Source of the DNA: Henricia sp. BOLD:AAB3569
Lineage: Eukaryota; Echinodermata; Asteroidea; Spinulosida; Echinasteridae
Assembly (NCBI GenBank): GCA_037783545.1
Contig: JBBELK010000033.1
Location: 1-64,000, forward strand
Length of the DNA: 64,000 nt
Direction: 5' to 3'
A program made the position numbers and the translations under genes. Below, one piece after another: positions 9,001-63,205 of this stretch. The notes beneath the pieces were generated by a model. The model had not been told where the DNA came from, searched no databases, and worked only from the letters and a program-made list of their open reading frames with translations. How positions within the stretch are numbered: the stretch's first letter is position 1; each line of letters begins with the position of its first letter.

Positions 9001-12000
9001 TATCACAGCACTTAAAAACCAGGGAAATTGCACTTCAATGGCCGTTTTTGAGACAAATGGTTCAGTTTGCAGGAAATCCTACAGATATTAGGTTCCCATG
9101 GTCGTGCTATCCCGGAGAGCAAAGACAGGGAGATTCTGGGGCTGAATTGCTTGAAGCTTACAAGTGTCTTCCACCTAAACATCGAGATACATAGGTGGCC
9201 CTCAAAACCATAACCTTTTGATTATAGGGCTGGCTTTATACTCACTATACCACACTCACCACCCAGTCATGATGTAGCCATCCTTGGAACTGGGAAAGAG
9301 TGGCCACTATAAACAGGTGGCCACTTTATAGAGGTTGCATTAGCATTGTACATGTCATTCTGGGAGCAAAGATGGGCCGTATCGAATAGCTGCCATCTTG
9401 TAGGGCAACTTTTGATATTTAAATTGATGAACAATGTGAGCACAAAATGTGCAACCATGCATGTCCTCAATGAACAAAGAAACTGCCCTGCAAGATGGCA
9501 GATATAAGCAAACGGCTTCGTTATTCAGTGACCACTATGGACATCTTTGACTATGCCTCATCTATAGGTGGAGATGGAACGACTGAACAGCAAGATCGAA
9601 CACCTCCGATCACAGAATGACTTACTGCAGCTGACCCTGGAAGAATGCAAGTCCAACGCCGACCGGCTGACGTTACTAACAGGAAAATATGAGAGCAATA
9701 ACACAGCGCTGCAACTGGCCGTCAACTATGCTGATCAAACGCTGGAGGCCTATGGAGTGCTGCTCATGCTGTGTGAGACAGAACAGCAGGTCGTGGTGGC
9801 TAACTGCCGGGCTGCGGGTGTTGGTGGCATTGGAACGGGTAAGGGTGGAACCCTGTGATTATGTTTAAATAATAGTACAATTAATAAGTACAATTAAAAT
9901 ATCTAACAGATATTAAAAAGAAAAGAGATTACATTACAGTGATGTTTAAAATAAAGACCTTTAGGCCGGGGTCAGACGAATTATGACATCCCAATTTATT
10001 GTACATGTAGTATTACTATAGTACTATTACGAGATTTTGTGCGTGTGACCCCAAATTTATTGTAATCGTATCACAATCAGTCAACGATTGTGATACGATT
10101 GTAATGGTAGTACAATACATTGGCAAAACATCTCGTAATCGTATTACAATCCATTTCTCCTCGCGCACGCGTGGTTTCTGCCTCACCGCGCGCGCCTGGC
10201 CTACGTTTCCCAGGGCGCTAGGCGTGCGCGCTGCACACTACAGACAGCAAGCAAGCACACGCAACACCGCAAGGGACTATGGGATGGATTACAATACGAT
10301 GATATTGTGTTGCTCGTGTGACCCCACTTTATTATAATACGATTACAATCCGATGTCTGACTCCGGTCGTCGTTGGAATTATTACAATCGTATCACAATC
10401 GAGTAATTATGTGACCCCGGCCTTAGATTGTCATATCGACTATGTGGACTTGGATGTTTTAAAGTATTCATGAATGCATTGGTCATGTCATCTCTCTTAT
10501 CTTGTCCACTGCCATAATTGAGAGTGCAGTGATTATAGAGTTTTTTTCTTAAACCTGAACATAACTTCATCATGTCTCAGTCTATATGACAATCTAAAAG
10601 TGTTCAGATGCAAATCTTGCAGTTTGTCAGTGTAATTTATTTCTGTGTAGGTGAGAGTTCAGAAGGTTCTGGAGAGGATTCAGAGGAAACTACCATGATG
10701 TTAAAGAGAGTCCACGAAAACCGCAAAGCGGCGGAAAATATGGCCAAGGCTCTGCTGCAAAGATTGGACAGGAGCTGTGGGACGATGGTCTGTCATGTCC
10801 CTGGATGTACGCTGCAACCATGGGAGGACGTGTCCTCACACAGTCACACCAGGTACGTAGGGGGACCGGCGGTTAAGGGGAGGGTCATAGAAACCACAAA
10901 GTGGCAGGGAACATGGCCAAAGGCTCTACTGACTGGACAGGAGCTGTGGGACAATGGTCTGTCATGTCCCTGGATGTACGCTGCAACCATGGGAGGACGT
11001 GTCCTCACACAGTCGCACCAGGTACTGTACGTAGGGGGACTGGCGGTTTAGGGGAGGGTCATAGAAACCACAAAGTGGCAGGGAACATGGCCAAAGGCTC
11101 TACTGACTGGACAGGAGCTGTGGGACAATGGTCTGTCATGTCCCTGGATGTACGCTGCAACCATGGGAGGACGTGTCCTCACACAGTCACACCAGGTACG
11201 TAGGGGGACTGGCGGTTTAGGGGAGGGTCATAGAAACCACAAAGTGGCAGGGAACATGGCCAAAGGCTCTACTGACTGGACAGGAGCTGTGGGACGATGG
11301 TCTGTCATGTCCCTGGATGTACGCTGCAACCATGGGAGGACGTGTCCTCACACAGTCGCACCAGGTACGTAGGGGGACCGGTGGTTTAGGGGAGGGTCAT
11401 AGAAACCACAAAGTGGCAGGGAACATGGCCAAAGGCTCTACTGACTGGACAGGAGCTGTGGGACGATGGTCTGTCATATCCAGAGATGTACGCTGCAACC
11501 ATGGGAGGACGTGTCCTCACACAGTCACACCAGGTACGTAGGGGGACCGGCGGTTTAGGGGAGGGTCATAGAACCCACAAAGTGGCAGGGAACATGGCCA
11601 AAGGCTCTACTGACTGGACAGGAGCTGTGGGACGATGGTCTGTCATGTCCAGAGATGTACGCTGCAACCATGGGACTGGAAATCAATTTCTAATTTTGGC
11701 CATCAAAAGGAACCAGCTCCTTTCGTAGAGATCTACACACTTTCAAGAGGGATTAATTTTCTAGTATAAACTGTTAAATATCAAATAATTTAAATTTTGA
11801 TGTCTTTTTTAAATTTTAAGGCCGATTCTAGTAAAGAAGCAAACACGAGTGCAAACTTTGTATAATTCTGACGTTACATTTTCTTTTGCAAGGTTAGAAT
11901 TAGTTAAATTTTCTACGAATTGACAGCACAAAAACTTCACTGTGACGTAAAATATGTGTATGTGTTTATGTTTACTTTCATGTGAAGTACAAACCAAGCT

Positions 12001-15000
12001 TTAATTGGTAAAATAAAATTTAAAAATCAGAAAGAGAACCCTTATTTTTTGACCACAGCACCACCAGCTCAACGACCAGCAGCTGTGACACTGACTTCAC
12101 CAAGGAAGACGAGCAGAGACTTAGAGACTACATCCAACAACTCAAGAATGACAAGGCCGCTGTGCGATTGACTGTTATGGAGCTAGAGAGCGTGCACATT
12201 GACCCCATGTCACAGGAGGTCAAGTCAAGTGCTGATAGTCAACGATTGGACCTGGAGAATGCAGTGATGATGCAGGAAATTGCAGCACTTAAGGTGAGGT
12301 AGTGTTGAAAAATGATGCCTTTTTCTCAATTTGGTAAATTTTTAAATGGAGCATATTACTCTGTGAGTGATTTTGATCAACGACTAAAGTTAACCACTGG
12401 TTTAATGTCATTCTAGTAACACACGTGCACATTCAAGTGTGTACACTTTTAGTTAGTCAGTCGGTTCAGTGCAGAACACTATAGGCATTGACTATATGCC
12501 TGATGGGTACCAGTGACCAGCGCGACCGTGCCCTGTGGGCTGGTTCCAAATGGTCGACCAGACACGGCTAAACCATGGTTGAATAGACTGCGTTTGGTTG
12601 GAAGTAGAAACTGAATTAGCTTTCGTCTGAGAGACTGAATGTTAATTAGGCCAAACAAAATAAATGGTGCGTTTACGGTAACGGTCTAAAAAAATCCAGG
12701 TAGGTAGGTAGGAAAATAATTTTATTTTGTCATTTTTTTTTTACATTTCAGTTGCAATGTTTGAAACTCACTATTAACACTATTAACAGCTTCAAGTGTA
12801 GAAAATGTTATGTTCGTTGGAAATTATTGCAAATACATGTAGTGCTCATTTAAAATTATCAACTTGAAAATTGGCAATAATAAATTTGAGGTCGGCAATT
12901 TGGCCTCACAAATTTCAGGTAGGTTGGGTTACCGTAAACACACCATTTATTTTGTTTGGCCTTACATGTATGGTTTGTTTTGCCCTTACCTGACATAATT
13001 ATTGACACTGTGTACTCAGTAGGTTTACCCTGGGATTAAGTTGGTGAACAAATCACATCTCATCATGTCACGAGTTCAGACATCTGGGATAATTTGGAAG
13101 ATTGAAGATGCCTTTTCAATCTTCAAGGAAGGAATTTGCACATGTCTTAATGACTAACACGCAATGAACTCATCAAGTTTGCTATCGATCTATACAAAGT
13201 ATGGTTCAGTCACAAGAAAATAGCAATCTGGGGAGGGAATAAAATCCAGAAAATGGGTATAGACCTTTATCACGGTGCGGTCGTCTTTACTTTCCCATAT
13301 TAAAACCAATGTAACTAAATCGAGGCTTGAAGCCAAAAGTTCAACTCTGTTGGAATTGTTGGGTAAGCATTATTTCACATGCATGAAGTGCAATAAAGTA
13401 AATGGTTCTATAGCTAACAAAAATGGGAGATTGCAAGCAAATAAGTTTAATTTTCTGGAGAGAATTGCTTTTACATGAGGGCTCGAAATGTTGCTAAAAT
13501 GTTTGATATGTTTTATTAGACCAAAGCCAGACTGCAGCCACAAAAATATGACATGGCTGTCAGTCTAGTACAGCACAGAAAACATTAGACCAACATCTAA
13601 ATTACTGGGCTTGATGTAGCGGGTCAAGCCCTGTTAGATTATTAAATAAACTAAATGTTTCATTATGCATTAAGAGGGAAAAACAGATTTGCATCAGGAT
13701 TTAAACCTGAGACGTCTATAAGGCCAAGTGGTATTAACCATCTTACAAAGTATTAACAAAATCATGCCTGTCAACACACTAGTTCAGTTTAGAATGTCAT
13801 GTCTGAGATGATTTCAAGATGGCTCCACAATGCTAGGCCTGATCACTGACCTATAAACATGGACTGGGTAAGCCTCTTTTGATGGTAGTAAGATGGCCGA
13901 TGTATTGCATCAATACTTGCATATGCATCTGCTGTAGTATACCAGTCCATGTATAGAGGTCAGTGGGCCTGATGAGTTTGCCCTGAAGCCATTCTCATCC
14001 ACTTGGAATGTCGGCCACTGAATACACATGTACACAGCTGGAAGGGTAGATAGAGCGTGCATGTGTGTTTAAGGCATTAAGGCAGATTGTCAGGGATTAG
14101 TGAGTGAAAAGGTTAGCCGAAGTTCATTCCTATATAAAGGGGGCATTTTGGCAACACACACCATATTTTCCAGGGAATACCTTTGTCTGGTCTCAAATAA
14201 AAGAAATAAGTTTAAGTTGTTCTGAAGAGATAACTTAGGCCCAAAAAGGGTTACACATAGTGTGACAACATGCCTTTCTAAAAACCTTGTGTACAAATTT
14301 CCAATATAACGCGCGTAACAAGGACGGACACTTGTGTTACATGTACATTTTAGGCCGTCCCGGTTATTAGCGTATATTTGAAGTTTGTACACAGGGTTTT
14401 TAGAAAGAATGTTACAGGCCTTCATTTTAAAGGAGCGCGATCGCGCTCGCGCTCCTCCGCGCTCCTTAAATTTTTTAAGGAGAGCAAAAAAAAGCGCTCC
14501 TTACAATTTTAACAAGAGCATTTTTTTCAAAACGCTAATTGTTGAAAAAAGTCCGGTTGGCCAGTCAAGATAATGTGGTATTTAAGTTCTTTAAAACAAA
14601 GTACATGTAGCCTAAATATTCAATATTATATTTACGCAAGAAAAAAAAGCGCATCAGTCGTTCATTGATCGCGGCCGTACCGACACTGACATGTGGGAAA
14701 AAAAGTACATCGCACTCGCACCACACCGCATGCATGTGGTGCATGTACTGTAACAAACTCTGGATTCAGCTGAATACCGTGTACACGTACGTATTGATAA
14801 AGTGTTGGCTGTACGCAAAGCTTGAACATTATTCCGTTCATTTCGCAAACTCCAGAACCGCAATTGCGTTTGCGAACATCCCCCTGTTGCGGACTCGCAT
14901 AGACGTGCTGATACATGTGGAGTATACTGTAATCCAGTGGGAGTGTGTGGTGTGTGGAATAGCGTGCACGTGCTGCTTTTCTTCGAAGCTTCGGGAGCTA

Positions 15001-18000
15001 AACACAAGTGCAGCGTGTATGACTACTTTTTCTTACAAAATAAATAAACGCAAATTCCTTAATTTTAACAGCTGAAGTTTTAAAAATATATATGTGATTG
15101 CAATAAATGTGTATTGATCAGCGATGCCTCGTAAGGATCGCATGAAACGCTCCAAGCAACTGGAACTGGACAGATCGGCCTGCAGTAAATGCAGAAATTA
15201 AAGCTGGAATCGTTCCTGATCGGCTCTGGGCGAGTTCAAAAATCCGCTCAAATTTTATCGAAATTGGCCGTGGTCATCAACATGTACGTCATGTATTTAT
15301 GATAAATAATTTATTTTATAAATTTGACATCCGACCTGAGCAGATTCTGTCATTTGTGGACTATGTGAAAGGATTACCGTCCCGTAGCCTACGTGATTTT
15401 ACCTGTTGGTCGGTGGGTTTTCTCTCCGTGTACATGCCGTATCCGGCCGGTGCCCTGTTTCGTTTTGAGTCGGACGAGTTGTCTCGGCGGACGAGTTGTC
15501 TTGGGCGAACGTTTTGGGGACCGGCTATCCCGGGCACAGGTTGTCCCGGAGACGAGTTTCACGCAATATTTGGATTGTTTTCTGGTTTTTCTTATTCTGT
15601 TTAGTCCTAGGCCTATCTGAATTTTTGCTTTTCTAAAGTGAGGAAACGGTAGCTAATTTACTTAACTTACTAGGCCAATTTTAAAAAGATTATTTAGGCC
15701 TAATTTTTTATTTTTTTGGTGGTTATTAAATCGCAGTTGTGATTGGTCAATGACAAACATTAAAATGTGACTGTGTGTGTCACTGTTAATGTTTGTCTCT
15801 CAACTCTGGGTTTTTATTTTGCAAACTAATGGAATTGTCAGAGGTGGTATAAAAAAAAAACGGTTTCATAATTAAACTCTTTAAATTGAGTAAGAAAAAG
15901 TTGAACTACTGGTGAATGTTGTGTTCCTTTTCTTGAGTATGTGTTTATTAAAGGCATAGACACCTTTGGTTGTCATTTTGAGTAACTACAAATAGTGTCC
16001 AGGGCCTTTAAACTTGCGTTTTGTTAGCGAGAGCAAATCACTCTCCTTAATTCATTCTTTTGATTTAAGAAGAGCGATTTTAAAATCACTCTCCTTAATT
16101 CACCTTTTGATTTAAGGAGAGCGATGCACAGCTCTCCTCAGATTTATTAAAACGAAGGCCTGATGTTATCAAACTATTTGTAACCCTTTTTGGACCTACA
16201 TGTAAGTTATCTCTTCAGAACAACTTAAACTTATTTATTTTATTTTGTGACCAGGCAAAGGTATTTTCTGGAAAATATGGTCTGTGTTGCCAAAATGCCC
16301 CCTTTACTGTTGAAAGACTCGCATAGGATAAGAGAGAAATCATATGAGCTTATTGGACATTTAGATTTGAACCACTGTGCCCCATAGTGTACCTCATTAT
16401 GCCCCATAGAGCTGTACCTCATTATGCATGGAATTTTGTTGAATATCTGCACTAAAATATCTGTTCCCTGACAAACTTTGGGAACGTGGCTATAGGCGTG
16501 TTTCTATTGAGACCCATTTACCAGATATAATGCTGGAAAAGACGAAAAATGTGCTCAGTAGAAATAGGTCTTGTCCGCTATTTTCTGGTAAATGGGGGGA
16601 AGAATTTTCCCCGACAATTTTCCTTCTCGAGGAAGAAAAATGACGGGGAATTTATCCGGTAAGTGCCAATATAAATACGCACCGTTCGTCCGAGTGCGCA
16701 TACAGGGGAGAGAACATAAACATGTGACCGCACAATGACTGATCCAATACACGTGCTTGACCCCTGCATGTGACCTTTATCTGGCAACCTCACTAAGCGT
16801 GACAAAGGCCAGCAAGCTCAGTAGAAACTTCGCGTTACCCGCTATTTACCGGTAAATGGGTTTACCGGTAAAATTGCAGAACGTCAATAGAAACACCCTA
16901 TAAGATTGGTAGGAGAATAGAAGGAAATATTTCTCCGTACTATTTTAGACAGAGTGGGTTTCAATAGTGAGTTGACATTTAGTGAGTTGACATTTAGTGA
17001 GTTGACATTTAGTAAGTTGACATTTAGTAAGTTAATATTTTGAGACTTTGAGAAGAGTGATTGATTGACAAGATAGTCAGGCAGCTGATCTAAAGGATTA
17101 GTGGGGATTAAGTTTAATCTAATGGGTCTGATAGCTTGACTGATTAGATCCTCCAGGCAGAGATTATCTCGTTCATCTAGATTATCTTGCTTCATTGCCC
17201 TGCCTGATAACTGAGCACTTGGAAAACTGATTTTTGGTTTTCCCTGCTCGTTTTCCTTTTTGTTATTTTCTTTTTAACCTTACCACTACATGTCATCTAC
17301 TTTTTGAAACTTCAAAAGTCACTTCTGGCACGGATTGTTCTAAATGTTAAAAAAGGAAATAGCAATCTCCACAGAGATGTTAAATAAGTACATCTCTGTG
17401 TGTATTTTATCCCATGTTTCATGTTAGTTTCTTTTCTCATTTATGTTCTATCAAGTTGAAAATTCAGATTTGTCCACACTGTCTTGCTGCAACAGACTCT
17501 TATGGAGAGCGCATTTTTCTTTTAATTAAAAATGCGACAGTGGAATCACTATTAAAGATACCATGGGTGCATTTGAAGCTCTGTTCATGTCAGAACACAA
17601 GAACAGAGTTTGCAATGTCGTAAGAGATTTGCACTCCACACACTGGAGAGCGCATATAGAACAACATGATTAAAGATGTTAAAATGGATGTAAATAAACA
17701 AATACTCATCTGCTGTCTCACAATGTGGCCAGCGAGGGGATCGCGACGTTTCGACCGCAAAGCTGTAGGCCTTCATCAGGCGATGATGTAGACAGTTCGG
17801 TGTCTCCTTAAGTAGCTAACCGCGGGATCCACCGATGCCGTGCGGCGAGCCGTAATTGACAAATGGATGTTATTTGCCTATACACGATGCAGTATATCCA
17901 TTTTATACATTTTAAACATACCAAAAACTCACAGCATGCTCGGGTGGGACTCGTACCCATGGCCTCCTGCAATCTAGGCAGAAGTCTTAACTACTTAACC

Positions 18001-21000
18001 ACCGAGCATGCCGGTGCCGAATGGCTGGTTAAACCTTTCAGGTCAAACTCTTCAGAAGGAAGAATGGAATAAGTTTGTGGTTACTATTGACCACTCTCAC
18101 AGACACCATCTTCGTAGGAAAAATGCTACTGCGTATTAAACGCCATCAAGTACGCGCACGCACACCCTGGAAAAAGTTCCAAGCATGCGTGCGTGTTGCT
18201 AAAAATTTGTTCGAAATACGGCGCAACTGAAGCGCGTCATAAAAAATATTACGCTCAAAATCCTGATGCACTTGACAATTTGTAGGAAGTGACGTCATTT
18301 GAACGTGATCAATTGATTCTATGTAATCAGTCACACACTTTTGTTTTTACAAATTATTGAACTTTTAAATTCTTAAGTCTGAATTTTGTTATACAGGAGG
18401 ATAAAGCCGAGCTCAAGGCCCAATACTACCTCCTTGAGAAAGAGAAAAAAGCAGCTGAACTCAAGATGAGCTCCCGAGAGGCTCAAGAACAGGCTTACCT
18501 CGCCCAGATAGATCACCTCAAGTCAGAGGTACAGGATAAGAAAGGCAAGGATGCAGTCCCAAGGAGCTCCAAGGTAAGACTTGTAAGTAGTGGGAGCCTG
18601 AGGAACAAGCTTACTTAGCCCTGATAGACCACAAAAATGAGGCACAGCAAAATAAGGGATGTCATAAGACCTGTAGGAAAGTACACAAAATGGCGAAACG
18701 AGAAAAGGTTATCTTGATTAATACAAAATGGTGGGTTCAGCTAGGGTATGCTATCAGCGTCTAGGTCCCTAGCTGATCTTAAATGTAAAGTTTAAGACTG
18801 GCCAACCATACCTTTTTATTCCTTTAGTATGATTCTGTTAAATTTGTTAATTTTTGTGTCTTTCCTTTACAAACGCCTTTAATCACTCTAGCTAACCTGA
18901 GTAACCTAGAAAACCATGCAATCTCCATCGAGATGGTTTGGTCTTCAAGATGACTGATGATTTGTTGATTTTTATGCTTTCCCATTCCAAGCAGTCCGGT
19001 GCTAGTCAGAACCCGACGCCTTCAATCACTCTAGCTAAACTGAGTAACCTAGAAAACCCTGCAATCTCCATCGAGATGGTTTGGTCTTCAAGATTACTGA
19101 TGATTTGTTGATTTTTATGCTTTCCCATTCCAAGCAGTCCAGTGCTAGTCAGAACCCGACGCCTTCAATCACTCTAGCTAAACTGAGTAACCTAGAAAAC
19201 CCTGCAATCTCCATCGAGATGGTTTGGTCTTCAAGATTACTGATGATTTGTTGATTTTTATGTCTTCCCTTTCCAAGCAGTCCGGTGCTAGTCAGAACCC
19301 GACACCTTCAATCACTCTAGCTGAACTGAGTAACCTAGAAAACCCTGCAATCTCCATCGAGATGGTTTGGTCTTCAAGATTACTGATGATTTGTTGATTT
19401 TTATGTCTTCCCTTTCCAAGCAGTCCGGTGCTAGTCAGAACCCGACACCTTCAATCACTCTAGCTAACCTGAGTAACCTAGAAAACCCTGCAATCTCCAT
19501 CGAGATGGTTTGGTCTTCAAGATTACTGATGATTTGTTGATTTTTATGCTTTCCCATTCCAAGCAGTCCGGTGCTAGTCAGAACCCGACGCCTTCAATCA
19601 CTCTAGCTGAACTGAGTAACCTAGAAAACCCTGCAATCTCCATCGAGATGGTTTGGTCTTCAAGATTACTGATGATTTGTTGATTTTTATGTCTTCCCTT
19701 TCCAAGCAGTCCGGTGCTAGTCAGAACCCGACACCTTCAATCACTCTAGCTGAACTGAGTAACCTAGAAAACCCTGCAATCTCCATCGAGATGGTTTGGT
19801 CTTCAAGATTACTGATGATTTGTTGATTTTTATGTCTTCCCTTTCCAAGCAGTCCGGTGCTAGTCAGAACCCGACACCTTCAATCACTCTAGCTAAACTG
19901 AGTAACCTAGAAAACCCTGCAATCTCCATCGAGATGGTTTGGTCTTCAAGATTACTGATGATTTGTTGATTTTTATGTCTTCCCTTTCCAAGCAGTCCGG
20001 TGCTAGTCAGAACCCGACACCTTCAATCACTCTAGCTAAACTGAGTAACCTAGAAAACCCTGCAATCTCCATCGAGATGGTTTGGTCTTCAAGATTACTG
20101 ATGATTTGTTGATTTCTATGCTTTCCCTTTCCAAGCAGTCCGGTGCTAGTCAGAACCCGACGCCTTCAATCACTCTAGCTGAACTGAGTAACCTAGAAAA
20201 CCCTGCAATCTCCATTGATACGGTGGAGATGGTACGACGAGAGAAGAAACTCAGAGCCAAGATTCATGAGCTCATGGCGACGATTGAGAAGCTTCAGAGG
20301 AGCTCAGAGTTAAGACATCAGCAATCGGCGGAGTTTATTGCTGACCTCAAGAGAGCAAATAGGTGTGTTAAGAGTACAAGTCAAAGTCAAATCTAAGAAA
20401 AACCATAACTCCCCAATTCTCATATCAATTAAGTCACAAACTGGAACAAAACCATTCCATTATACACATAAGACCCATTGAATTAACGATGACCATGGCC
20501 GTGTTCCACTTACACGGAGATTGCTAATGTTTCCAACATTTGCCAATTGAGCTCGTGCCAATGACGTCATTTTGGAATTCAAATAATGCCGCGTCGTTGT
20601 GGAAGCCATGTGCGTGCGCGTTATGTGTGTCCATAGCGTGCGTAACGCGCAATGCTAAGGCTCCCATTGGTGAATTAAACCGCGTTACGCCCACCAGAGA
20701 GACACACAACGCGCACGCACATCACTTCCACAATGACTCAGCATTATTTGACTCCCAAAATGGCGTATTTGCACGTGTTCGAAGGGGGTCAATAGCTGGT
20801 ACCCAACTTTGGGTACCATTTGCTGGTAACCAGTGGCAAACATTAGCAAAGTTCATGTGTGTGGAACGCTGTGAAATTACAGGTAAAAGTGTTAATCAAA
20901 CATTTAAAGATCACAACCTTAACAATTGTTTGTCACTTCTTGCTCTTTTTTAGCAGTAGTGTACATGAGAGGTGAATTAAATGTTGGAGTATTTGCTGCT

Positions 21001-21796
21001 ATTACAGTGCTCTAGTAAGAGGTATATTGAATATTTGAATTTTTCCTCATATTTATTACAGTGCCCTGGTGACAGCGTATGACAAAGCTAAAAAGAAGCA
21101 TCAGAACCGATTGAAGAAGCTTGAATCACAGATGATGGCCATGGTGGAGAGACACGACACACAGGTTAGTTGGTTGGTTTGTTTCACTGTCTGTGTCTGT
21201 TTGTTTTTTTGTCTGTCTTGAGACACTAATCCAAGAAACCCCAGAACCGACTCAAGAAACTAGAATCACAGATGATGGCCATGGTGGAGAGACATAACAC
21301 ACCAGTTGGTTAAAATTTAAACCAAAATAAAAGGAAAGATGAATTTTGGATTACTGTTGTCGTTCAGGGTAAAAGTTGCTGTGAGAGGTTAGTGTCCTAA
21401 AGTGGAATTCATAACACTACCACTGTTCCTTTCGCATCTCCGTAAGCTCGGTTCATACTTCACGCGAAAGCGAATTTGACATCGCACTGCAAATTCGCAG
21501 AAAGTGTAACTAGTTTCAATTAATTTGAGCGAATGAAACAAACGACAACAATAAGTAGTTGTGGACCACAAGTTTTCACAGAGTATTGTGTAGTAATCAT
21601 GTGTGACATCCAAACTAGTATATGAGGAAACACTTTACGTCCATTTCTCAATCATGCAATTTTCTCGTTTCTCCTCCCCCCCCCCCCCCCCCCCCCCCCC
21701 CCTTCCCTCCAGGTTCGAATGTTAAAGCAGAGAATAGCTTTACTGGAGGATGAAAACCAGGCTTCAAGACCCCCTCATAACGAGACTTCACTCTAA
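2908..21796 (+). CDS. MCC: MCC orthologue, 3' part (12 visible coding exons)
   Basis: Spliced exons: 2908-3014, 5439-5608, 5896-6162, 7994-8326, 8836-8964, 9568-9838, 10651-10852, 12059-12293, 18397-18573, 20139-20362, 21062-21164, 21713-21796. All introns are GT/AG, frames join, and the product is 766 residues plus stop; the usual vertebrate length is about 829, so roughly 100 N-terminal residues lie left of the window. Recognised by family blocks such as LEECKSNADRLTLLTGKYE, QRLRDYIQQLKND, REAQEQAYLAQIDHLKSE and the C-terminal ETSL, a class I PDZ ligand. MCC proteins are long coiled-coil scaffolds; the vertebrate protein binds the polarity protein Scribble and is linked to Wnt/beta-catenin signalling, cell migration and cell-cycle control. 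Gene family is certain; function in this species is inferred from orthology. Two exons border large tandem arrays made from their own sequence, and two have decayed duplicates. Confidence 0.93.
3285..3671. mobile_element. 387-base MITE with TA target duplication
   Basis: Inverted ends aaggggaattacacccaaga, about 27 bases, with TA on both sides (3283-3284, 3672-3673). It sits inside a CCCTT-rich tract that continues on both sides (3150-3280 and 3674-3850). A related half copy is at 55936-56078. Confidence 0.8.
4622..5054. mobile_element. Foldback MITE, family A, full copy
   Basis: Two arms of about 200 bases in inverted orientation, ends agtctttccacggtaaaggg. A degraded half copy follows at 5072-5205. 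Other members: 14134-14408 plus 16163-16321 (split), and 53199-53421 (half). Confidence 0.85.
5439..5608 (+). CDS. MCC: MCC visible exon 2
   Basis: Preceded by a long T tract and ccag, followed by gtgagt; ends on a full codon. The product CNDLSAELSRVVGELE matches the segment after the acidic linker of vertebrate MCC and is predicted helical. Confidence 0.88.
5896..6162 (+). CDS. MCC: MCC visible exon 3
   Basis: 89 whole codons between ctttccag and gtaggt. The first half is a His/Pro/Gln-rich linker; the second half is a heptad-type coiled coil ending IREERDRLRKK, nearly identical to vertebrate MCC. Confidence 0.9.
6215..6466. mobile_element. MITE, family B (ends gaattcacactgac)
   Basis: Inverted ends gaattcacactgaccg and cggtgtgattccacc. 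It shares the internal word aaaatcacagaat with partial copies at 42140-42356 and 49896-50560. Confidence 0.7.
6516..6885. mobile_element. TTAA-flanked MITE, family C copy 1
   Basis: 370 bases between TTAA (6512-6515) and TTAA (6886-6889); inverted ends aggccctttgtatcatttgc. The second copy, inverted, lies at 49226-49556. The TTAA duplication suggests piggyBac-type mobilisation. Confidence 0.8.
7138..7890 (+). repeat. 101-113 base minisatellite in MCC intron
   Basis: Seven copies (anchor ggccttgacattaacc at about 7140, 7241, 7350, 7451, 7564, 7673, 7782; spacings 101, 109, 101, 113, 109, 109). Units are rich in GGCC and TTGGCC. Two diverged units in reverse orientation sit in MCM6 intron 6 at 47858-48065. 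Confidence 0.92.
7994..8326 (+). CDS. MCC: MCC visible exon 4
   Basis: 111 whole codons between cacacag and gtaagt. Low-complexity Gln/Ser/Pro-rich, with the conserved islands INPSTGELS and AKVAERVRLK. It follows a 101-113 base minisatellite in the preceding intron. Confidence 0.88.
8676..8806 (-). mobile_element. tRNA-SINE, truncated copy
   Basis: Minus-strand tail (aattagggt, tttgcccttgcccgacgta, actcggtgctttcccgaga) and the start of the tRNA-like head (catagcgtgctcggtg). Same family as 22165-22345. Confidence 0.75.
8836..8964 (+). CDS. MCC: MCC visible exon 5
   Basis: 43 whole codons between ttttttcag and gtaatt, encoding VAEHLAQSLQECSSVQEI and HGLAIPESKAREIE, closely matching vertebrate MCC. 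A decayed partial copy lies about 165 bases downstream (9069-9137). Confidence 0.9.
9069..9137 (+). pseudogene. MCC: Decayed duplicate of MCC visible exon 5
   Basis: Conceptually reads QEILQILGSHGRAIPESKDREI against the true exon QEILQTLGSHGLAIPESKAREI. There is no acceptor at the exon start and no GT donor after the matching end, so it is a non-spliced relic of a local tandem duplication. Confidence 0.8.
9364..9505. mobile_element. Hairpin MITE, family D
   Basis: Inverted segments gaatagctgccatcttg and caagatggcag around a core with atgcatgtcctca. A better-preserved copy is at 34735-34881 and a partial one at 61630-61755. Confidence 0.7.
9568..9838 (+). CDS. MCC: MCC visible exon 6 (core conserved block)
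   Basis: Acceptor tctatag, donor gtaagg; leaves with one base of a codon. Encodes ERLNSKIEHLRSQNDLLQL, LEECKSNADRLTLLTGKYE and the segment ending CRAAGVGG. This is the diagnostic block shared by MCC and USHBP1-type proteins. Confidence 0.94.
9964..10422. mobile_element. Harbinger-like MITE with TTA duplication
   Basis: 459 bases, ends ggccggggtca and tgaccccggcc, flanked by TTA (9961-9963 and 10423-10425). The inside is a palindrome-rich series of tgatacgattgtaat-like words. A TTA duplication is typical of PIF/Harbinger. Confidence 0.8.
10651..10852 (+). CDS. MCC: MCC visible exon 7
   Basis: Acceptor ttctgtgtag, donor gtacgt; enters in phase 1 and leaves after two bases. Encodes MMLKRVHENRKAAENMAKAL and QPWEDVSSHSHT, as in vertebrate MCC. 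The 3' part of the exon plus donor is repeated five more times downstream. Confidence 0.9.
10853..11683 (+). repeat. Tandem array derived from MCC visible exon 7
   Basis: Five extra units, spaced 174, 169, 169 and 169 bases (anchor word catagaaac at 10886, 11060, 11229, 11398, 11567). Each unit carries the 3' part of exon 7, the gtacgt donor and about 40 bases of intron. No copy has an acceptor in front of its exon part. Copies differ by few substitutions; the last is cut at about 11683. Confidence 0.92.
12059..12293 (+). CDS. MCC: MCC visible exon 8
   Basis: Acceptor gaccacag, donor gtgagg. Enters with one base, completing Ser, then a Ser/Thr run and TKEDEQRLRDYIQQLKND, SVHIDPMSQEVK and QRLDLENAVMMQEI. 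Strongly conserved coiled coil. Confidence 0.92.
12611..13039 (-). mobile_element. tRNA-SINE copy interrupted by a MITE
   Basis: SINE parts 12611-12648 and 12962-13039 are contiguous once the 313-base element between them and one TTA are removed. Tail words tgttaattag and tttgcccttacctgacat mark the family. Confidence 0.75.
12649..12961. mobile_element. TTA-flanked MITE inside the SINE
   Basis: Inverted ends ggccaaacaaaataaatggt, extending about 35 bases; TTA at 12646-12648 and 12962-12964. Harbinger-like. Confidence 0.85.
13844..13965. mobile_element. 122-base hAT-like MITE
   Basis: Ends CACTGACCTATAAACATGG and its inverse, with an 8-base duplication GGCCTGAT at 13836-13843 and 13966-13973, the size expected for hAT elements. 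Confidence 0.85.
14134..16321. mobile_element. Family A foldback, split by a later insertion
   Basis: Left arm 14134-14408 and right arm 16163-16321 match the two halves of the copy at 4622-5054. The element at 14415-16162 separates them. Confidence 0.85.
14415..16162. mobile_element. 1.75 kb hAT-like insertion with CAGGCCTTC ends
   Basis: Begins caggccttcattttaa and ends ttaaaacgaaggcctg, flanked by ATGTTA (14409-14414, 16163-16168). Subterminal parts repeat ggagagcgat words. No transposase recognised; a short reading frame at 15124 starts MPRKDRMKRSK and stops after 23 residues. Confidence 0.8.
16491..16903. mobile_element. 0.4 kb TIR element
   Basis: Ends tataggcgtgtttctattga and tcaatagaaacaccctata. 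Inside it has inverted blocks rich in ggtaaatgggg. Confidence 0.8.
16964..17036 (+). repeat. 16-base tandem repeat
   Basis: About 4.5 copies of agtgagttgacattt with the last units changed to agtaagttgacattt. Confidence 0.9.
17740..17784 (-). ncRNA. Hammerhead-ribozyme-like motif
   Basis: On the minus strand: ATCGC, then core CTGATGA, an imperfect stem II (aGGCC...GGTC, 11-base loop), GAAAC, cleavage triplet GTC, then GCGAT, which pairs exactly with ATCGC as stem I. Stem III would be the 2-bp AC/GT type seen in ribozymes of Penelope-like retroelements, which act as dimers. One extra A after the core is a deviation. No reverse transcriptase remains nearby. Confidence 0.5.
17925..18012 (-). mobile_element. 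tRNA-SINE head
   Basis: The minus strand reads gctcggtggttaagtag (A-box region) and tacgagtcccacccgagc (B-box). It looks like a tRNA but has the SINE consensus and no good acceptor stem. Confidence 0.75.
18397..18573 (+). CDS. MCC: MCC visible exon 9
   Basis: 59 whole codons between atacag and gtaaga: AELKAQYYLLEKEKKAAELK and REAQEQAYLAQIDHLKSE. Coiled coil nearly identical to vertebrate MCC. Confidence 0.93.
18866..20138 (+). repeat. Tandem array derived from the 5' edge of MCC visible exon 10
   Basis: Eight units of about 143 bases (anchor gtgctagtcag at about 18999, 19142, 19285, 19427, 19570, 19713, 19856, 19999) plus a partial upstream piece, all before the true exon at 20139. Each unit has a pyrimidine tract, an AG acceptor and the first 22 or so codons of exon 10, then diverges into a sequence that reaches a TGA. 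Polarity is opposite to the other arrays: copies lie upstream and multiply the acceptor. Confidence 0.92.
20139..20362 (+). CDS. MCC: MCC visible exon 10
   Basis: Acceptor ttccaagcag, donor gtgtgt; leaves after two bases. Of nine look-alike acceptor segments only this one continues into VRREKKLRAKIHELMATIEK and RHQQSAEFIADLKRAN, which match vertebrate MCC, so it is taken as the real exon. Confidence 0.9.
20498..20873. mobile_element. Foldback MITE in MCC intron
   Basis: Ends gccgtgttccac and gtgtggaacgctgtg, with inverted blocks tgcgtgcgcgttatgtgtgtc and gacacacaacgcgcacgcac flanking a short centre. Confidence 0.75.
21062..21164 (+). CDS. MCC: MCC visible exon 11
   Basis: Acceptor tttattacag, donor gttagt; enters with one base. 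Encodes ALVTAYDKAKKKHQN and KKLESQMMAMVERHDTQ, almost identical to vertebrate MCC. Confidence 0.93.
21241..21302 (+). pseudogene. MCC: Decayed duplicate of MCC visible exon 11
   Basis: Repeats the segment for QNRLKKLESQMMAMVERH about 141 bases downstream of the true one. It lacks an acceptor and its end (caccagttgg) has no matching donor, so it is unlikely to be spliced. Confidence 0.8.
21676..21702 (+). repeat. 27-base poly-C tract forming the last MCC acceptor pyrimidine tract
   Basis: An uninterrupted run of 27 C lies 10 bases before the AG (21711-21712) of the final MCC exon, so it acts as the polypyrimidine tract. The run is likely length-polymorphic. Confidence 0.85.
21713..21796 (+). 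CDS. MCC: MCC terminal coding exon (visible exon 12)
   Basis: 27 codons plus TAA: begins VRMLKQRIALLEDENQ and ends HNETSL. The final ETSL fits a class I PDZ ligand (Thr at -2, Leu at 0), the site by which vertebrate MCC binds PDZ partners. Confidence 0.95.
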   Translation, partial: VRMLKQRIALLEDENQASRPPHNETSL

Positions 21797-22077
21797 GGAC
21801 GCCTTCATTGCCAAAGACTGTTATCCCATCCCACCTTGAACTATTTGCCTACATAAGAAGACCATGCAAGACAATCTTCTTATCGCTGGTGTGTGCCTGG
21901 AGCAAGTTATGCAATGGTGCTCGTAAGACAATCTATAGTCGGCCTTACATCTTGGGTTAAAAACTACAAGCAGTCACCTGTACAGAATGTAAAGGACTGC
22001 ATCGTTATATGTTCATCTGTTTGGCTTCAATCAGGATTCTACGTCATGAAAAAAACATGAGAGAATGCGATTTGGCT

Positions 22078-22157
22078 TGCATCAGGGAGAATGAATATTA
22101 ATTAGGGTCTGTTTTGCCCTAACTGACGTAACTTAATTAGCACTGTAAATGATTCGA
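22078..22157 (-). mobile_element. tRNA-SINE tail
   Basis: gaatattaattagggt and ttgccctaactgacgtaa are the family tail in minus orientation, directly before a plus-oriented copy. Confidence 0.7.
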
Positions 22158-22164
22158 ACGGGCT

Positions 22165-22345
22165 GCTCAACACCGGCCAGCTCGGTGGACGAGTGGTTAA
22201 GATGTCTGCCTAGTATGCAGGAGATCGTGGATTCGAGTCCCACCTGAGAACACTATGAAGTTTTTTTAATAGTGTCCGGGGGAAGCACTGTGTAGTGCTA
22301 TAATAAACCAAGTTACGTCGGTTAGGGCATAACAAACCCTAATTA
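22165..22345 (+). mobile_element. tRNA-SINE, near-complete copy
   Basis: tRNA-like head: gctcggtggacgagtggtta (A-box) and gattcgagtcccacctgag (B-box); then the tail with tcatagtgtc-like hairpin, gggaagcactg, tacgtcggttagggc and aaccctaattaa. This is the best reference copy of the family in the window. Confidence 0.85.
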
Positions 22346-23278
22346 ATGAAAAAACATGTTAGGGGTAGAGCACTCCAGCCTTGATTTTGTCAGAATTTCA
22401 AAGGACACCGAGGCCAACTGGCCAAATTTCATGGAGCCTGCGTCAGTCAGAACTACCTCACTTTGGTGGAAACTGAGGACTTTTATTGCAAAATCAGATA
22501 ATTGCAAAATTTGAATAGTTTATCAATTTTTGGCAAGATTTGACTAGGAATGTTCTTGACCTGTTCACAGTCGATTTTCAACATTGTTGGCATTTTGTGA
22601 CAGTGCCTGATGATGTGCAATCCACGTCTGACTTCACGGGGAAATATTTTAGCATTGGAGAAGAAAAAAAAGGAAAATGAAATTGCAATTTTGGAATGCC
22701 TTGCAAAAATAGAGCCTTTAGGGGCAATTGGTCTGTCAATTGTTTTGTCCCAATGTGTCGGGTCTGAATAGACACCTTGTGTTTCCATCGTCACATTATT
22801 AAACATGCTCACAGACATGGCCGCCGATGCAAATTGTTTATTGTATGTAAATGACACAATCAGCATTGTATACATGTACATATCAGGAATTGTAGATACA
22901 GGGCAGTGAGTGGTGCATGGACATTGAGGTAAAAAGGGAAGTGAAAAGGAGATTAAGGTTTTGCTGACATATTTGTATGGGGTAAAACTCCAAGTTGCTC
23001 CAAGGTCTGATTTCGTGACCACAACCAGTAACTGCAGAGTCAACCAGTGGTCAGCTTTGGCCATCTGCAAATTAAGCCATTCATTATGATTTACTGAACC
23101 AGTAGAAATGTTTCGGGTTTGCGTCTTGAAAATGGGCCATTATATAATATGCTGTTATAATGAAGCTAGTATAAAAGATGGTAATGCAAGTAAATGCAGG
23201 ACTTTGTTAGACAGAGTAAGCGAGCTTATCAGTCAAAATGCCGTCAGCCTTTTAAAAAGAACAAAAATGCTGACTTAA

Positions 23279-23505
23279 AGATGAAGACTCGTCGATGCAC
23301 GACGAGCTAATTCGTGCCACGAAATTCACCAAGCTTCATACCTTGCCCGAGCTCTTACGATCCCGGAGGGGATTGCGTACGTGTACGTGTGTTTGTATGT
23401 ACGTACGTAAACCAATGAACCTGTACCTTCCGGGATCGTAACAGCTGGAGCGCGGTGAATGTCGTAGCAAAAATTAGTTCCTCGCGCATTGACGAGCCTG
23501 CGTCT
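23279..23505. mobile_element. TTAA hairpin family E, diverged copy
   Basis: Flanked by TTAA (23275-23278 and 23506-23509); ends agatgaagactcgtc and gacgagcctgcgtct. The centre carries an inverted cgatcccgga pair. Confidence 0.65.
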
Positions 23506-24321
23506 TTAATTGCTGAATTCCCACAGCAACATCAAAAGGGTTCGGGAGATAATTCACAACCCACCTTTAATATTATTTATATAAACTGTGCATTTCTTTT
23601 AAAATTTAACTTAAGGAGCTTCCACGTCTTAAAAGAACAGTGTTATGTAATGGGCAGCTCTCAGCTGTAAAATGCACTATCAAGTTTGACATATAATTTT
23701 TTTGAGCAACGGAAAGGGTGACGTAGCTAAAATCAGAATATTAAAATAATAATAATATTGTATTCAGCAAGGTTGCACTTATTTTGCTCGTTTCATTTCT
23801 AGAACAGGGCGTATCTCATCTTTATCTTGTGGTGCCTTGCTCAATACTCGCTTTTGCTAACAAACAGACCACTTCTAAGACAAACTGTAAATTTTCCCTT
23901 TTAAAAGCTAAGATAAAACACAGTTGTGTTCTTAAACATATCGTTATTGTACAGATGTAAAGATAAACTGTTGTTACTGTTCATAACTATTTATGATAAC
24001 ATTTATGTTCGGTTTTTCTTTTTTTCTTTTATCAAAACTATTTTATGTTGGATTTTGAGTTACTGCATGTACTTTTATTTGATCTGCAGTCTTCTAATAG
24101 TTTCCTTCATTTTGCAAAATGAGAATTCCTTTTTAGTTTTGTTTTTCATATAAAAATTGTATTTCCCCCTGAATCAGTGGATGTATACGTGTACATGTTG
24201 ATAATAGCCCAAAAAGAAGGTGCTAGATTTTGTGTACGATCATGATTAAGGTTTGGTTTTCAAATTGTACCCAAAGGATTTTGATAACAAAACTTAGAAA
24301 CGGACAAATTGGAATAATTAA

Positions 24322-24454: not shown

Positions 24455-25021
24455 TTAAGATAATGCTGTCAATCAAAGGTTAAAGAAATTTTTTTTAAAT
24501 TTAAATATTTACCCCAATGGGACATCTTGGGTACGTATATTAAAGGCCGTTTTGTAACAAATCTGTAAGTCTTACTTTAATTTGTTTTTAATTTATTTTT
24601 AAATTGCATTGTCACATGCCGTCCAGAAACTTAATAATCACCGTTAAAAATTATAGGGACCCTGAAAATGATTCGTAAATTTTATTGATTGCATTATGTG
24701 AAAGATTACAAAAGAAGTGTTTAATTTGGTTCGAATCACTGATCTATATGGATTGGTTGCCTGGCTCCATGAGTAAAGCGACCAGTCACCATCTTGCTCA
24801 AGGTATTATAACAATTCCTTGCCTATCACTGCCAATATATGAGGCTTTGTGTTATAAAGGAGCCTGGAGCCCAACAGTGAAAGTCCCCCCGCCCCCAAAA
24901 TGGGATATAAAAAAACGGCCAAATGCTGAAGTGTCTTCCTTGAATTGTCTTGACTATTAAGAATAAAGAACACATTACAGGGAAAAAAATAAGTACTTTC
25001 CACTCCACTTCCTCTCCCCCG

Positions 25022-25052
<31 letters not shown>

Positions 25053-26050: not shown

Positions 26051-30916
<4,866 letters not shown>

Positions 30917-30989
30917 TGTACTATTGATGGAGATTCCCCTACCATTAAAACAAAAATAGGAAATGGTAAAATCATTTCCCATAAAAGTA

Positions 30990-33330
30990 CAGCCTTGGGA
31001 AAAAAATATTGGACCACCTACAACCTGAAAACAAGGAATGTGTTATAGCAATATTTGATCCCATGTAAAGCGGGCCTCCCACTGTGCGATTTTTGCCACG
31101 AATTTCCAACAATAAGCCAGTTGCGTGATAGATTTGCATAAATCCTAGAGTCCTGCCTCTGCGCTATGGCGCTCGCATAATAAGAGAGTACTGCACCAGA
31201 CTACCAGGCCGTTGGCAACGGTTGCCAAGTGGCAAGGGGGTGCACGCTAGAACATGTTAGCCGGCGCGAAAGTCTGTACGGTACCTGGAATACCTCGCAC
31301 AGTACTCTATGCATTTTGAAGCTGGACCATCCGAAATTACATGTTGAAATTGCATGTTAAAACATGTACTCGCCATGAAGTTTCGTCAAAATAACGAGTT
31401 AGAACGTCTTGTTTGACTCGAAATGAACGTTAACTTTGAAAGCTGGATTGTTCCCAATCTGTGCATGATCAATTCAAGAAAAGAGTAACGATTTCGGGTT
31501 ATGAGACCGGTTCAAAGTTGCCGATTGAACGTCGAACCCGAACGAAGGGAGACGTATACACTTTACAGCAAACTTGACTTGAAATAGGGGAAATAAGATG
31601 ACATGCAGCTAGTAAATCTTGCCACAATATGATAAAAAATTAATATCGCCGTTGATTGTTTAATATCCATTCGACGGAACTTCGTCAGAAATTGGCGAGT
31701 TTTGCTGTTTCAGATCGCCGTTCAACGCGACAGCGAGCGACTCTCGTTTTGCGTACATGACCGGCATATTCCGAAGCCCAAGTAAAATCGCGAGAAATAC
31801 ATCAACGTACGCGACTTAATTAAGTGGAGATATAAATACCGTACACCCTCGCCACTAATTCTTTCTAATATTACATGATATTATGCCCCCATAAAGTTTA
31901 AATTTGGTTAGGAAACGTGATTTGGTTTAATAGGAAACATGAATTTTGCGTGTGTGGACCGGGAAAAATGGAAATGCGAAAATTATGCGATGCCTACTAA
32001 ATATACCAAAATAAAAAGGTCGATCGTATCCCGGTTCGTGTTTGCTAGACAGATTTGTGAAACTGAGGACTGTTAGGAGATATAATTGTTTGTCTTTGTT
32101 TAAAATTTTATTCTAATCGAAGTGTGTTACGGGTGCTGTTTGTCGCCCACAAATTAGAGCCTGCCCTTTTTTCCCATCTCAATTTTTAGTGGTGAATTCC
32201 GTATTCCGCACGGATATAGACAAACTCAACAACGTATAACACAACAACCGCTCGGTCAAGTTTTTGCAGCCAAAGTATTTCTAAAATCTGTTGTAACTTG
32301 TATGTAGCGAGATAATCATTTTAATTCATAATTGAATTACTTTTGATTTTACCCAAGTTGCTGCGAGACGTCGATCATTTGCGGAAACAAACAGGCATGA
32401 CCTTTTCTTTTCAAAAAATTCGGAAGGTGTATTTGAAATCGTATGCCGGTCTTGTACGCAAAACGAGAGTCGCTCGCTGTTATGTTGAACGCGCGTTTTG
32501 GAACAGTAAAACTCGCCAATTTCTGACGATGTTCCGTCAAATGGATAAACAATCAACGGCGCTATTAATTTTATCATATTGGCAAGATTTACAATCTGCA
32601 TGTCATCTTATTTCCCCTATTTCAAGTCAAGTTTGGTGTCTAGTGTATACGTCTCCCTTCGTTTGGGTTCGTGACGTTAAATCGGCAGCTTCAAACCAGT
32701 CTTATAACCCGAAATCGTTACTCTTTTTTTTGAATTTATCATGCACAGATTGGGAACGATCCAGCTTTCAAAGTTAACGTCTATTTCGAGTCAAACAAGA
32801 CGTTCTAACTCGTTATTTTGACGAAATTTCATGGCGAGTACATGTTTTAACATGCAATTTCAACATGTAATTTCGGATGGTCCAGCTTCAAAATGCATAG
32901 AGTACTGTGCGAGGTATTCCAGGTACCGTACAGACTTTCGCGCCGGCTAACATGTTCTAGCGTGCACCCCCTTGCCACTTGGCAACCGTTGCCAACGGCC
33001 TGGTAGTCTGGTGCAGTACTCTCTTATTATGCGAGCGCCATAGCGCACAGGCAGGACTCTAGGATTTATGCAAATCTATCACGCAACTGGCTTATTAGGT
33101 ACAATTTGGTACGATTGTGTATAGACTCTACACACAATCGTACCAAATCGTAGCTAATCGTACCTAATTCTTGGCCAAAATCGCACAGTGTGAGGCCCTC
33201 TTAAGCCCCCCGAGGTAATGACTATTGTCCAAGACCAAACATCATAAACCTAGCCCAGTTGCTGCCGAAGAGGAGTGATTTTTATGAACACTTCAAGACA
33301 TAGGTGGTCCAATAATTTTTTCAAATGCTG
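30990..33330. mobile_element. Tc1-like TIR element carrying a large foldback
   Basis: Ends cagccttgggaaaaa/attggaccacct and the inverse attggaccacct/tttcaaatgctg, flanked by TA at 30988-30989 and 33331-33332. The ends resemble Tc1/mariner termini. Most of the interior is the 31070-33205 foldback; no transposase seen. Confidence 0.7.
31070..33205. mobile_element. 2.1 kb foldback element
   Basis: Arms of about 0.75 kb in inverted orientation (31070-31785 and 32370-33205), ends gggcctcccactgtgcgat. The right arm has an extra 70 or so bases (about 33097-33170) forming its own hairpin with cacaatcgtaccaaat. The loop is about 0.6 kb. Confidence 0.85.
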
Positions 33331-33699: not shown

Positions 33700-34090
33700 A
33701 TGCAGCGCGATATGTGGCAGAGGGACTCCCCCCACCCCCCCTAACCCCCCTAACCCGCCCCCCTACCCCCCCCCACCCCCTCCCCCCCTCCCCCCCGCCC
33801 CCCTTAGTGAGCCCGCCCTCTTGTGGTTATTTCATTGTTACTGCGGTGTATTTCCATTGTGACGTCATGTAAATACCTTGGAGATACACCGCAGTTTTCC
33901 TTGGTCGGATTAGTCTATACCAAGCAACAAAAGAAACAACTTTTCTCCACTTTTTGATCGAAAAAAAAAAACCCAGACATATATGCAGCATGATATGTGG
34001 CAGAGGGTACATGTACCTCACCCTACAATTGTTGCCCCCCATTGTGACTAAAACATCCAAGGAATTTCCAAGGAATTCCTTTCGATCTCA
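33700..34090 (+). repeat. Dispersed repeat with gatatgtggcagaggg, copy 1
   Basis: C-rich tract plus two tatgcagc-gatatgtggcag words and catccaaggaatttccaagg. The same words occur at 59865-60090 in MCM6 intron 15, partly inverted. Confidence 0.7.
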
Positions 34091-34690: not shown

Positions 34691-34734
34691 TCCTTCCTCC
34701 ATGCTTGTAGTTGTACTTGGTGAATATTTCATAA

Positions 34735-35744: not shown

Positions 35745-63114
<27,370 letters not shown>

Positions 63115-63123
<9 letters not shown>

Positions 63124-63205
63124 GATCCATTCACACATCATCATTGGAGGATTGGGATCCATTCACACTTCATCATTGGAGGATTGAGATCCATTCAAAC
63201 CTATC
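63115..63205 (+). repeat. 32-base tandem repeat across the MCM6 stop codon
   Basis: Three copies starting gaggattg at 63115, 63147 and 63179. The first contains the last two codons and the TGA; the others are 3' UTR. Confidence 0.9.

Follow-up and report, generated by a model that had tools for sequence, protein, structure and literature searches.

Tandem copies of exon borders resembling amphioxus mirage minisatellites in the MCC and MCM6 genes of a starfish

Mirage minisatellites, tandem minisatellite-like copies of an intron-exon boundary that take in 5' or 3' exon edges, are described in amphioxus (PMC3087553, PMC3902484) for Adh3, the globin genes BflGb6 and BflGb9 and PGBD5, with troponin C, retinol dehydrogenase and presenilin loci also cited as cases. 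Their unit lengths are 150-160 and 157 bp in the globin genes, 10-72 bp in Adh3 and 60 and 108 bp in PGBD5, AG or GT is present in many copies and splicing is regular, and inner copies are homogenised while the edges are not (PMC3087553, PMC3902484). Ebner et al. (PMC3087553) considered mirages to be possibly general in cephalochordates and their origin to be unclear. Related systems include intron gain by tandem genomic duplication, reported for the potato RdRp gene (PMC4974935), and the Rogers model of intron gain by tandem duplication (as cited in PMC3087553). In human segmental-duplication genes, internal tandem repeats that are in part spliced out also occur at exon-intron boundaries (PMC2812944). 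In the open-access literature, no mirage case outside the cephalochordates was found, save these human repeats.

The window investigated here, the whole 64-kb stretch of starfish DNA (Henricia sp.), contains on its forward strand MCC (2907..21796, 12 exons), a G-patch gene (27443..30913) and the MCM6 coding region (35745..63123), whose 18 exons are in frame from ATG to TGA once all extra copies are spliced out. In protein searches the closest relatives of the spliced MCM6 and MCC are Acanthaster, Patiria and Asterias, with 81-88% identity to the starfish proteins, and identity to amphioxus MCM6 is only 72-73%, on which ground an initially suspected amphioxus origin of the window was rejected; residues 1-102 of the Patiria MCC protein have no match within the first 24 kb of the window. 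The G-patch gene, of which the domain alone was tested, is presumably GPATCH4, the name given in the first-pass annotation.

Tandem duplications were sought by self-BLAST for direct repeats (score threshold at least 50, blind to offsets below ~60), which gave 12 loci, of which 11 lie across a single splice border, and by a gapless scan of all offsets from 20 to 400, which relied on nucleotide identity only, discarded low-complexity matches and was used for the final counts. The gapless scan detected 17 loci, comprising the same 11 border loci (four in MCC, seven in MCM6) and six elsewhere (units of 185, 109, 15, 33, 116 and 32), and Tandem Repeats Finder (TRF) adds an intronic array with a 47-bp unit (16035-16125), making 18 in all. 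Left out were the sub-threshold BLAST matches at 16553, 24999 (twice), 52658, 57300 and 62602, which are below the gapless threshold or of low complexity, and other TRF rows with periods below 60, mostly poly-C or 10-25-bp units. Dinucleotide-shuffled sequences gave no match in 20 of 20 BLAST runs and in three of three gapless scans, and the top self-BLAST score in three mononucleotide block shuffles was 43.

Each border array is a head-to-tail series of exon end, splice site and adjacent intron, in which the extra copies are intronic and diverging. The unit lengths are 89, 140, 143, 144, 151, 155, 161, 164, 165, 172 and 174 bp, so that 10 of 11 fall within 140-174 bp although the scanned offsets ran from 20 to 400, and the 41 extra copies (one to nine per locus) affect eight donors and three acceptors. 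The first-pass annotation had listed at least ten such borders in MCC and MCM6, beginning at 10651, with units of 89, 134-174 and 32 bases, many near one nucleosome in length, and one to eight extra copies. Both scans bear out the number of borders, and the two longer unit classes and the nucleosome-like length stand; the border loci, however, start already at 8882, the copies reach nine, and the 32-bp array (32-bp x 2.7, 63113..63197) lies over the MCM6 stop codon and 3' UTR and contains no splice border.

In MCC, the 3' edge of exon M5 (8836-8964) is followed by one copy without a donor (8882..9135, unit 174 bp) and the 3' edge of M7 (10651-10852) by five copies (10700..11675, unit 169-174 bp), four of which retain CAG/GTACGT and the last of which is truncated. 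The 5' edge of M10 (20136-20362) is preceded by nine copies (18873..20224, unit 143 bp), the first partial, with the acceptor retained in eight, and the 3' edge of M11 (21062-21164) is followed by one copy whose donor is gone (21093..21311, unit 140 bp). A weak protein-level match at 18594..18659 (E 0.078), missed by both scans, may represent a degenerate copy from the 3' part of M9 (18397-18573) and was not counted.

In MCM6, copies follow the 3' edges of five exons, namely E2 (41596-41739; four copies at 41669..42105, unit 89 bp, CAG/GTAT in all), E7 (48102-48247; five copies at 48125..48977, unit ~150 then 134 bp, the donor gone from three inner copies), E8 (50679-50829; eight copies at 50752..52052, unit 144/150 bp, GT in all eight), E16 (60573-60746; five copies at 60659..61481) and E17 (62403-62542; one copy at 62463..62787, unit 153-155 bp, donor retained). 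The E16 units measure 165 bp when full or 139 bp in three copies, in which a 25-bp deletion takes out the donor; the last copy is truncated and the donor is retained in one of the five. One upstream copy with the acceptor retained precedes the 5' edges of E10 (53688-53829; 53464..53797, unit 164 bp) and E15 (59623-59728; 59405..59703, unit 161-163 bp). A candidate second copy of E10 near 53419 (E 6.4) and an exon-only fragment ahead of E9 at 52658 are weak and were not counted.

In the G-patch gene neither scan detected border duplications, as the first-pass annotation had stated; the contrast that it drew with MCC and MCM6 proves nothing, since at a rate of 11/56 zero loci over its six to eight borders are expected in 17-27% of cases.

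Judged from the sequence, the starfish arrays are mirage-type border minisatellites. As in the amphioxus mirages, they span the exon-intron boundary (at 11 loci), carry AG/GT signals in 30 of 41 copies and show homogenised inner copies with the edges excluded in three of the five arrays compared: in M10, M7 and E8 most inner copies are 93-100% mutually identical and the real copy is 86-97% identical to them, whereas E7 and E16 have no clear pattern. Most starfish units (140-174 bp) resemble those of the amphioxus globin genes, the units of Adh3 and PGBD5 being shorter. They differ in the starfish host and in their density, 11 borders being affected within a single 64-kb sequence and in only two of its genes. 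The term 'lineage-specific', previously applied to the mechanism, is unsupported, since arrays of the same construction have been published from amphioxus (PMC3087553, PMC3902484). The kind is already described there; the starfish adds a new, dense echinoderm example and suggests that the underlying process is not confined to amphioxus. Tandem-duplication intron gain is similar in that splice sites are duplicated and exon sequence becomes intron, but the starfish protein is as in relatives, and existing introns lengthen with no new one indicated; the human repeats belong to recently duplicated paralogs with often altered transcripts (PMC2812944), whereas the inferred starfish protein is unaltered.

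Regarding the origin of the arrays, we consider it somewhat probable that exon-anchored tandem duplications of about nucleosome length were filtered by selection to the intron side and then expanded by unequal exchange. Exon anchoring is proposed because no border unit contains less than 48% exon sequence (exon share 0.48-0.89, mean 0.63, P 0.003 for the mean, with unit edges from self-BLAST). The seed would be a tandem duplication of ~155 bp arising preferentially in exons, perhaps through double copying of an Okazaki (lagging-strand) fragment whose ends lie at nucleosome dyads. Selection would remove duplications of whole exons and those lying entirely within a coding exon, and duplications running over a splice site would survive because their extra copies are spliced out. 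An existing array would then grow by unequal exchange or slippage, and in the longest arrays this traffic would keep inner copies alike, with the real exon staying outside and the splicing machinery presumably picking the outer site by exon definition.

The nucleosome or Okazaki part of this proposal is suggested by analogy with FEN1-mutant yeast, in which small inverted triplications are reported to have modules of 148/160/148 bp, 6-bp junctions and breakpoints that coincide with the midpoints of nucleosomes and with Okazaki termini, tandem duplications also being increased (PMC13334657). The module size of 148-160 bp and the short junctions are similar, one 8-bp match being found in the starfish; in contrast to the inverted centre of the yeast triplications, no inverted pair was found at the starfish borders, where a search for inverted or larger-offset duplications returned nothing beyond the arrays themselves, and the analogy concerns the mechanism only. 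The two tests of such an origin were weak: clustering of exon-side breakpoints at the exon midpoint (dyad) was not convincing by KS tests (P 0.04 against a uniform 0-1 distribution, 0.51 against a truncated null), and junction microhomology was notable only at E17, where AAAGTGAA occurs both at the exon breakpoint (62463) and in the intron (62812) (P 0.045 before correction; the other 10 of the 11 loci not significant). The 89-bp unit of E2 is out of line with a nucleosome-size model. A wider idea, speculative and rather doubtful, is that in starfish, and perhaps also among deuterostomes including amphioxus, exons throughout the genome are hot spots at which single pieces of nucleosome length (Okazaki-sized) are duplicated in tandem. 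Splicing would conceal the survivors in introns, and introns near exons would consist in good part of old exon copies.

Alternatively, a process targeting the splice sites themselves, for instance through R-loops or splicing intermediates, might copy DNA over the junction, much as the first-pass annotation had proposed. A splice site lies inside all 11 loci, and donor and acceptor sides are both represented, but selection against exon-internal duplications would mimic this outcome, border units are exon-rich, and the 32-bp array extends from the last coding codons into the 3' UTR without any splice site, its unit size being different though. We regard splice-site targeting as unlikely; the straddling of the borders stands, and the data point, in moderate numbers, more to exon-anchored duplication than to junction copying, with selection leaving the straddling units. 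The process may start in exons. With dense arrays whose units are exon-rich and span a narrow size range, the echinoderm case makes it possible to test how mirages arise, through the rate of duplication in exons versus introns and the nucleosome phase of breakpoints.

That the arrays are ordinary minisatellites, randomly placed and spotted at borders because exons are easily recognised, is very unlikely. Window and feature were chosen post hoc, the conserved real exon copy keeps border arrays recognisable for longer, and short-unit intronic arrays are present: none of the four arrays with units below 60 bp is at a splice border and three (15, 33 and 47 bp) are purely intronic, so short duplications are not exon-bound. 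The scans, however, used nucleotide identity alone, and among loci with units of at least 60 bp 11 of 14 straddle exactly one splice border against ~2 expected (P ~1e-7), the frequency being too high for chance as previously claimed; among all 18 loci, short and weak ones included, it is 11 (P ~6e-7), the chances for six or seven non-border or short units (116, 185 bp, four short) being estimated rather than computed. A binomial with a flat chance of 0.155 gives P 1.4e-5 for 11/18 and P 1.4e-6 for 12/18 if 52658 is counted as border, and the self-BLAST set alone, with 1.75 of 12 expected at borders, gives P 6e-9. Among self-BLAST loci at ~90% identity or more, four of five are at borders (P 0.0012). 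Divergence of the copies from the real sequence amounts to 304 of 3675 exon sites (8.3%) and 175 of 1798 intron sites (9.7%); intron parts are nearly as conserved as exon parts, therefore duplications of similar age confined to introns ought to be detectable, and detection bias favouring border arrays looks small. As the window was picked for showing the pattern, the density of border arrays is not generalisable. Dispersed copies, the mark of introners and transposon-made repeats, were found at unit length elsewhere in the window for none of the 11 border units, two of which have short matches of 42-58 bp. Outside the borders, the intronic duplication at 4889 (unit 185 bp) is weak, and two of the three non-border loci with units of at least 60 bp (7138-7888 and 47853-48065) belong to one dispersed repeat family.

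Regarding splicing, a complete protein results if the outermost splice site, which adjoins the remainder of the exon, is the only one to be used; all 29 decoy splice sites tested lead to a premature stop, and alignments of MCM6 and MCC to starfish relatives contain no extra protein segment at the border loci. Reading frame and relatives thus indicate that the outermost sites are probably those used, which raises the question of how as many as eight intact decoys are passed over in splicing, and the arrays call for caution among gene annotators because border copies resemble extra exons. Retention of the copies for a function, such as splicing-regulating decoy sites or raw material for new introns, might be read from the splice dinucleotide in 30 of 41 copies and from the intron gain from mirages proposed by Ebner et al. 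(PMC3087553). There is little probability of this: the dinucleotide is absent from 11 copies, including three of E7 and three of E16 by deletion, each tested decoy truncates the protein, and covered exon codons evolve like the rest (MCM6 7/177 vs 11/544, P 0.17; MCC 5/131 vs 27/486, P 0.51). Assembly error, in which haplotypes or repeats were misjoined, has a precedent in the B. floridae draft, which appears aberrantly assembled at one mirage (Ebner et al., PMC3087553), but is very improbable, since copies carry private substitutions as well as indels in common, and divergence at the two-copy loci amounts to 5-30%, which misjoined alleles would hardly produce.

The possibility that drifted copies feed back into the coding exons was also considered and is overall unsupported by the comparison of covered codons with the rest. 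In MCM6 E7, a single exon chosen post hoc, four starfish-invariant residues are changed (S>G, H>N, N>S, T>A), and some of the E7 copies retain the residues of the relatives.

Annotation of the window revealed the gene MCC at 2907-21796 (12 exons up to the stop, with the Pfam domain USHBP1_PDZ-bd), MCM6 at 35745-63123 (18 exons joined via splice signals, complete and in frame from ATG to TGA) and, between them, a gene in which a G-patch domain was found and which we take to be GPATCH4, its name in the first-pass annotation. Among the best 120 of 7990 matches, a 699-residue part of MCM6 shares 88% identity with Acanthaster planci, 87% with Patiria miniata, 85% with Asterias rubens, 78-79% with sea urchins and 72-73% with amphioxus. 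MCC is 84% identical to that of Patiria, 81% to those of Asterias amurensis and Acanthaster and 67% to that of a brittle star. These identities assign the window to a starfish other than the four species compared. Long C-rich tracts are present on the plus strand at 792-846, 21676-21702, 25016-25052 and 33728-33803, one of them sitting immediately ahead of the splice acceptor of MCC's final exon.

Regarding tandem duplications, Tandem Repeats Finder detected seven arrays with units >60 bp in the window, and direct-repeat self-BLAST, which also picks up two-copy cases and does not see offsets below about 60, returned 12 loci at a score of at least 50, 11 of which enclose exactly one splice border. 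A gapless scan of every offset from 20 to 400, used for the final counts, found 17 loci, comprising the identical 11 border loci and six elsewhere. The border loci, head-to-tail arrays of an exon edge, its splice site and adjoining intron, lie at the 3' ends of MCC exons 5, 7 and 11 and MCM6 exons 2, 7, 8, 16 and 17 and the 5' ends of MCC exon 10 and MCM6 exons 10 and 15, confirming the earlier claim that both genes carry such arrays. Shuffled sequence gave no match by BLAST (dinucleotide shuffles, 20/20) or gapless scan (3/3), and the top BLAST score in three mononucleotide shuffles was 43. A 33-base stretch at 52658-52690, just upstream of MCM6 exon 9 and resembling its interior, is possibly an additional old border duplication.

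The six loci elsewhere are at 4889 (185-bp unit, weak), 7138 (109 bp), 47853 (116 bp), 16965 (15 bp, intronic), 43472-43538 (33 bp, intronic) and 63113-63197 (32 bp), to which Tandem Repeats Finder added an intronic 47-bp array at 16035-16125; an intronic 20-bp array at 61463-61525 lies at the far end of the MCM6 exon 16 array. Splice borders are thus the site of 11 of the 14 loci with units of at least 60 bp, none of the four shorter ones and 11/18 overall. The 32-bp array, which the first-pass annotation had placed at an exon border, instead begins in the last MCM6 codons, spans the stop codon and runs on into the 3' UTR, which fits the idea that coding-sequence duplications persist where extra copies stay outside the protein. 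The other short arrays (15, 33 and 47 bp) are intronic, so that a preference for borders is a trait of the long-unit loci.

The border loci involve eight donors and three acceptors, affecting 7/17 introns of MCM6 and 4/11 of MCC, with units of 89, 140, 143, 144, 151, 155, 161, 164, 165, 172 and 174 bp (mean 157, SD 12 bp, excluding 89). No unit-length copy of any of the 11 units was found elsewhere in the window, where only the units of MCM6 exons 16 and 17 have short matches (42-58 bp). The splice dinucleotide is kept in 30 of the 41 extra copies, and all 29 decoy sites within extra copies that were recognised in context would introduce a premature stop if substituted for the real site. The donor is absent from three inner copies of MCM6 exon 7; in exon 16 a 25-bp deletion removed it from three copies and the last copy ends before it. 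Exon sequence makes up 0.48-0.89 of the unit, and a mean share of at least 0.63 arises in 0.34% of random placements respecting exon length; this exon bias may possibly be due to the higher GC content of exons (49.5% vs 41% in introns).

When units of the observed lengths were slid over MCC and MCM6, one border was included in 8.5-17% of placements, no border in 81-87% and a whole exon in <1%. About 2.0 of the 14 long-unit loci are expected at a border, and at least 11 would occur with P ~1.4e-7, upholding within the window the earlier claim of an excess over chance; the corresponding values are P ~6e-7 for all 18 loci and P ~6e-9 for the self-BLAST set (1.75/12 expected). For six of the 18 units, border chances were estimated rather than computed. 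Since independence between loci is assumed and this window was singled out on account of the pattern, these figures describe placement within the window and not genome frequency. A recognition bias producing the border excess is disfavored, since intron parts of extra copies differ from the real copy at 175/1798 sites (9.7%) and exon parts at 304/3675 (8.3%), so that intron-only duplications of equal age should be visible.

Of five arrays compared, three show inner-copy homogenisation. In these, at MCC exons 10 and 7 and MCM6 exon 8, most inner copies are 93-100% alike; similarity to the other copies is 86-97% for the real copy, 87-90% for the far-end copy of MCC exon 10 and 90-95% for the MCM6 exon 8 copy at 51328. 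The arrays of MCM6 exons 7 and 16 have no clear homogenisation pattern. Indels common to groups of neighbouring copies indicate that inner units expanded. Array-covered codons do not change detectably faster than the rest in MCM6 (7/177 vs 11/544, P 0.17) or MCC (5/131 vs 27/486, P 0.51). MCM6 exon 7 (48102-48247) has four changes at positions invariant in three other starfish, and some of its array copies retain the relatives' residues.

To the extent that a single sequence can show it, the border arrays are real. They are of a known kind, the border-spanning minisatellites that Ebner et al. (2010; PMC3087553) described in globin genes of amphioxus and termed 'mirages'; these authors also cite Adh3 (Canestro et al., 2002) and two further mirage loci, term the mechanism unclear and propose intron gain. 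A paper on PGBD5 adds examples of 60 and 108 bp and refers to troponin C (PMC3902484). In the open-access literature on mirages, amphioxus and sea urchin minisatellites, border repeats, starfish and intron gain, judged mostly by title and the start of the abstract, no case outside cephalochordates was recognised, with the exception of human segmental-duplication repeats (PMC2812944); within that literature the arrays are new for echinoderms, and they are dense in this window.

Regarding mechanism, the arrays straddle borders, a complete protein is predicted through the outer splice sites, which adjoin the rest of the exon, and the copies drift. Duplications of about 155 bp may be anchored in exons, which carry positioned nucleosomes, and then be filtered by selection, with the outer splice site presumably chosen by exon definition. 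A parallel for the unit size comes from FEN1-mutant yeast, in which inverted triplications measuring 148/160/148 bp are reported to have their breakpoints at nucleosome midpoints and at Okazaki termini; tandem duplications are increased there too (PMC13334657). Under a dyad model, in what are weak tests, exon-side breakpoints were not convincingly central and microhomology was notable at 1/11 junctions. The exon-rich, size-restricted unit renders the mechanism testable.

Two of the three long-unit non-border loci, 7138-7888 (109-bp tandem, MCC intron) and 47853-48065 (MCM6 intron), lie in opposite orientation with ~79% identity and represent one dispersed repeat, either satellite-like or mobile. 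An inverted pair of ~660 bp at 31111-31768 and 32442-33096 (94% identical, ~0.7 kb apart), located in the interval separating the G-patch gene from MCM6, has the appearance of a foldback or TIR element. Another inverted pair, at 14135-14271 and 16163-16306, is 88% identical, and translated pieces of it (13 residues) reappear near 4.5-5.2 kb and 53.1-53.3 kb, suggesting a dispersed element.
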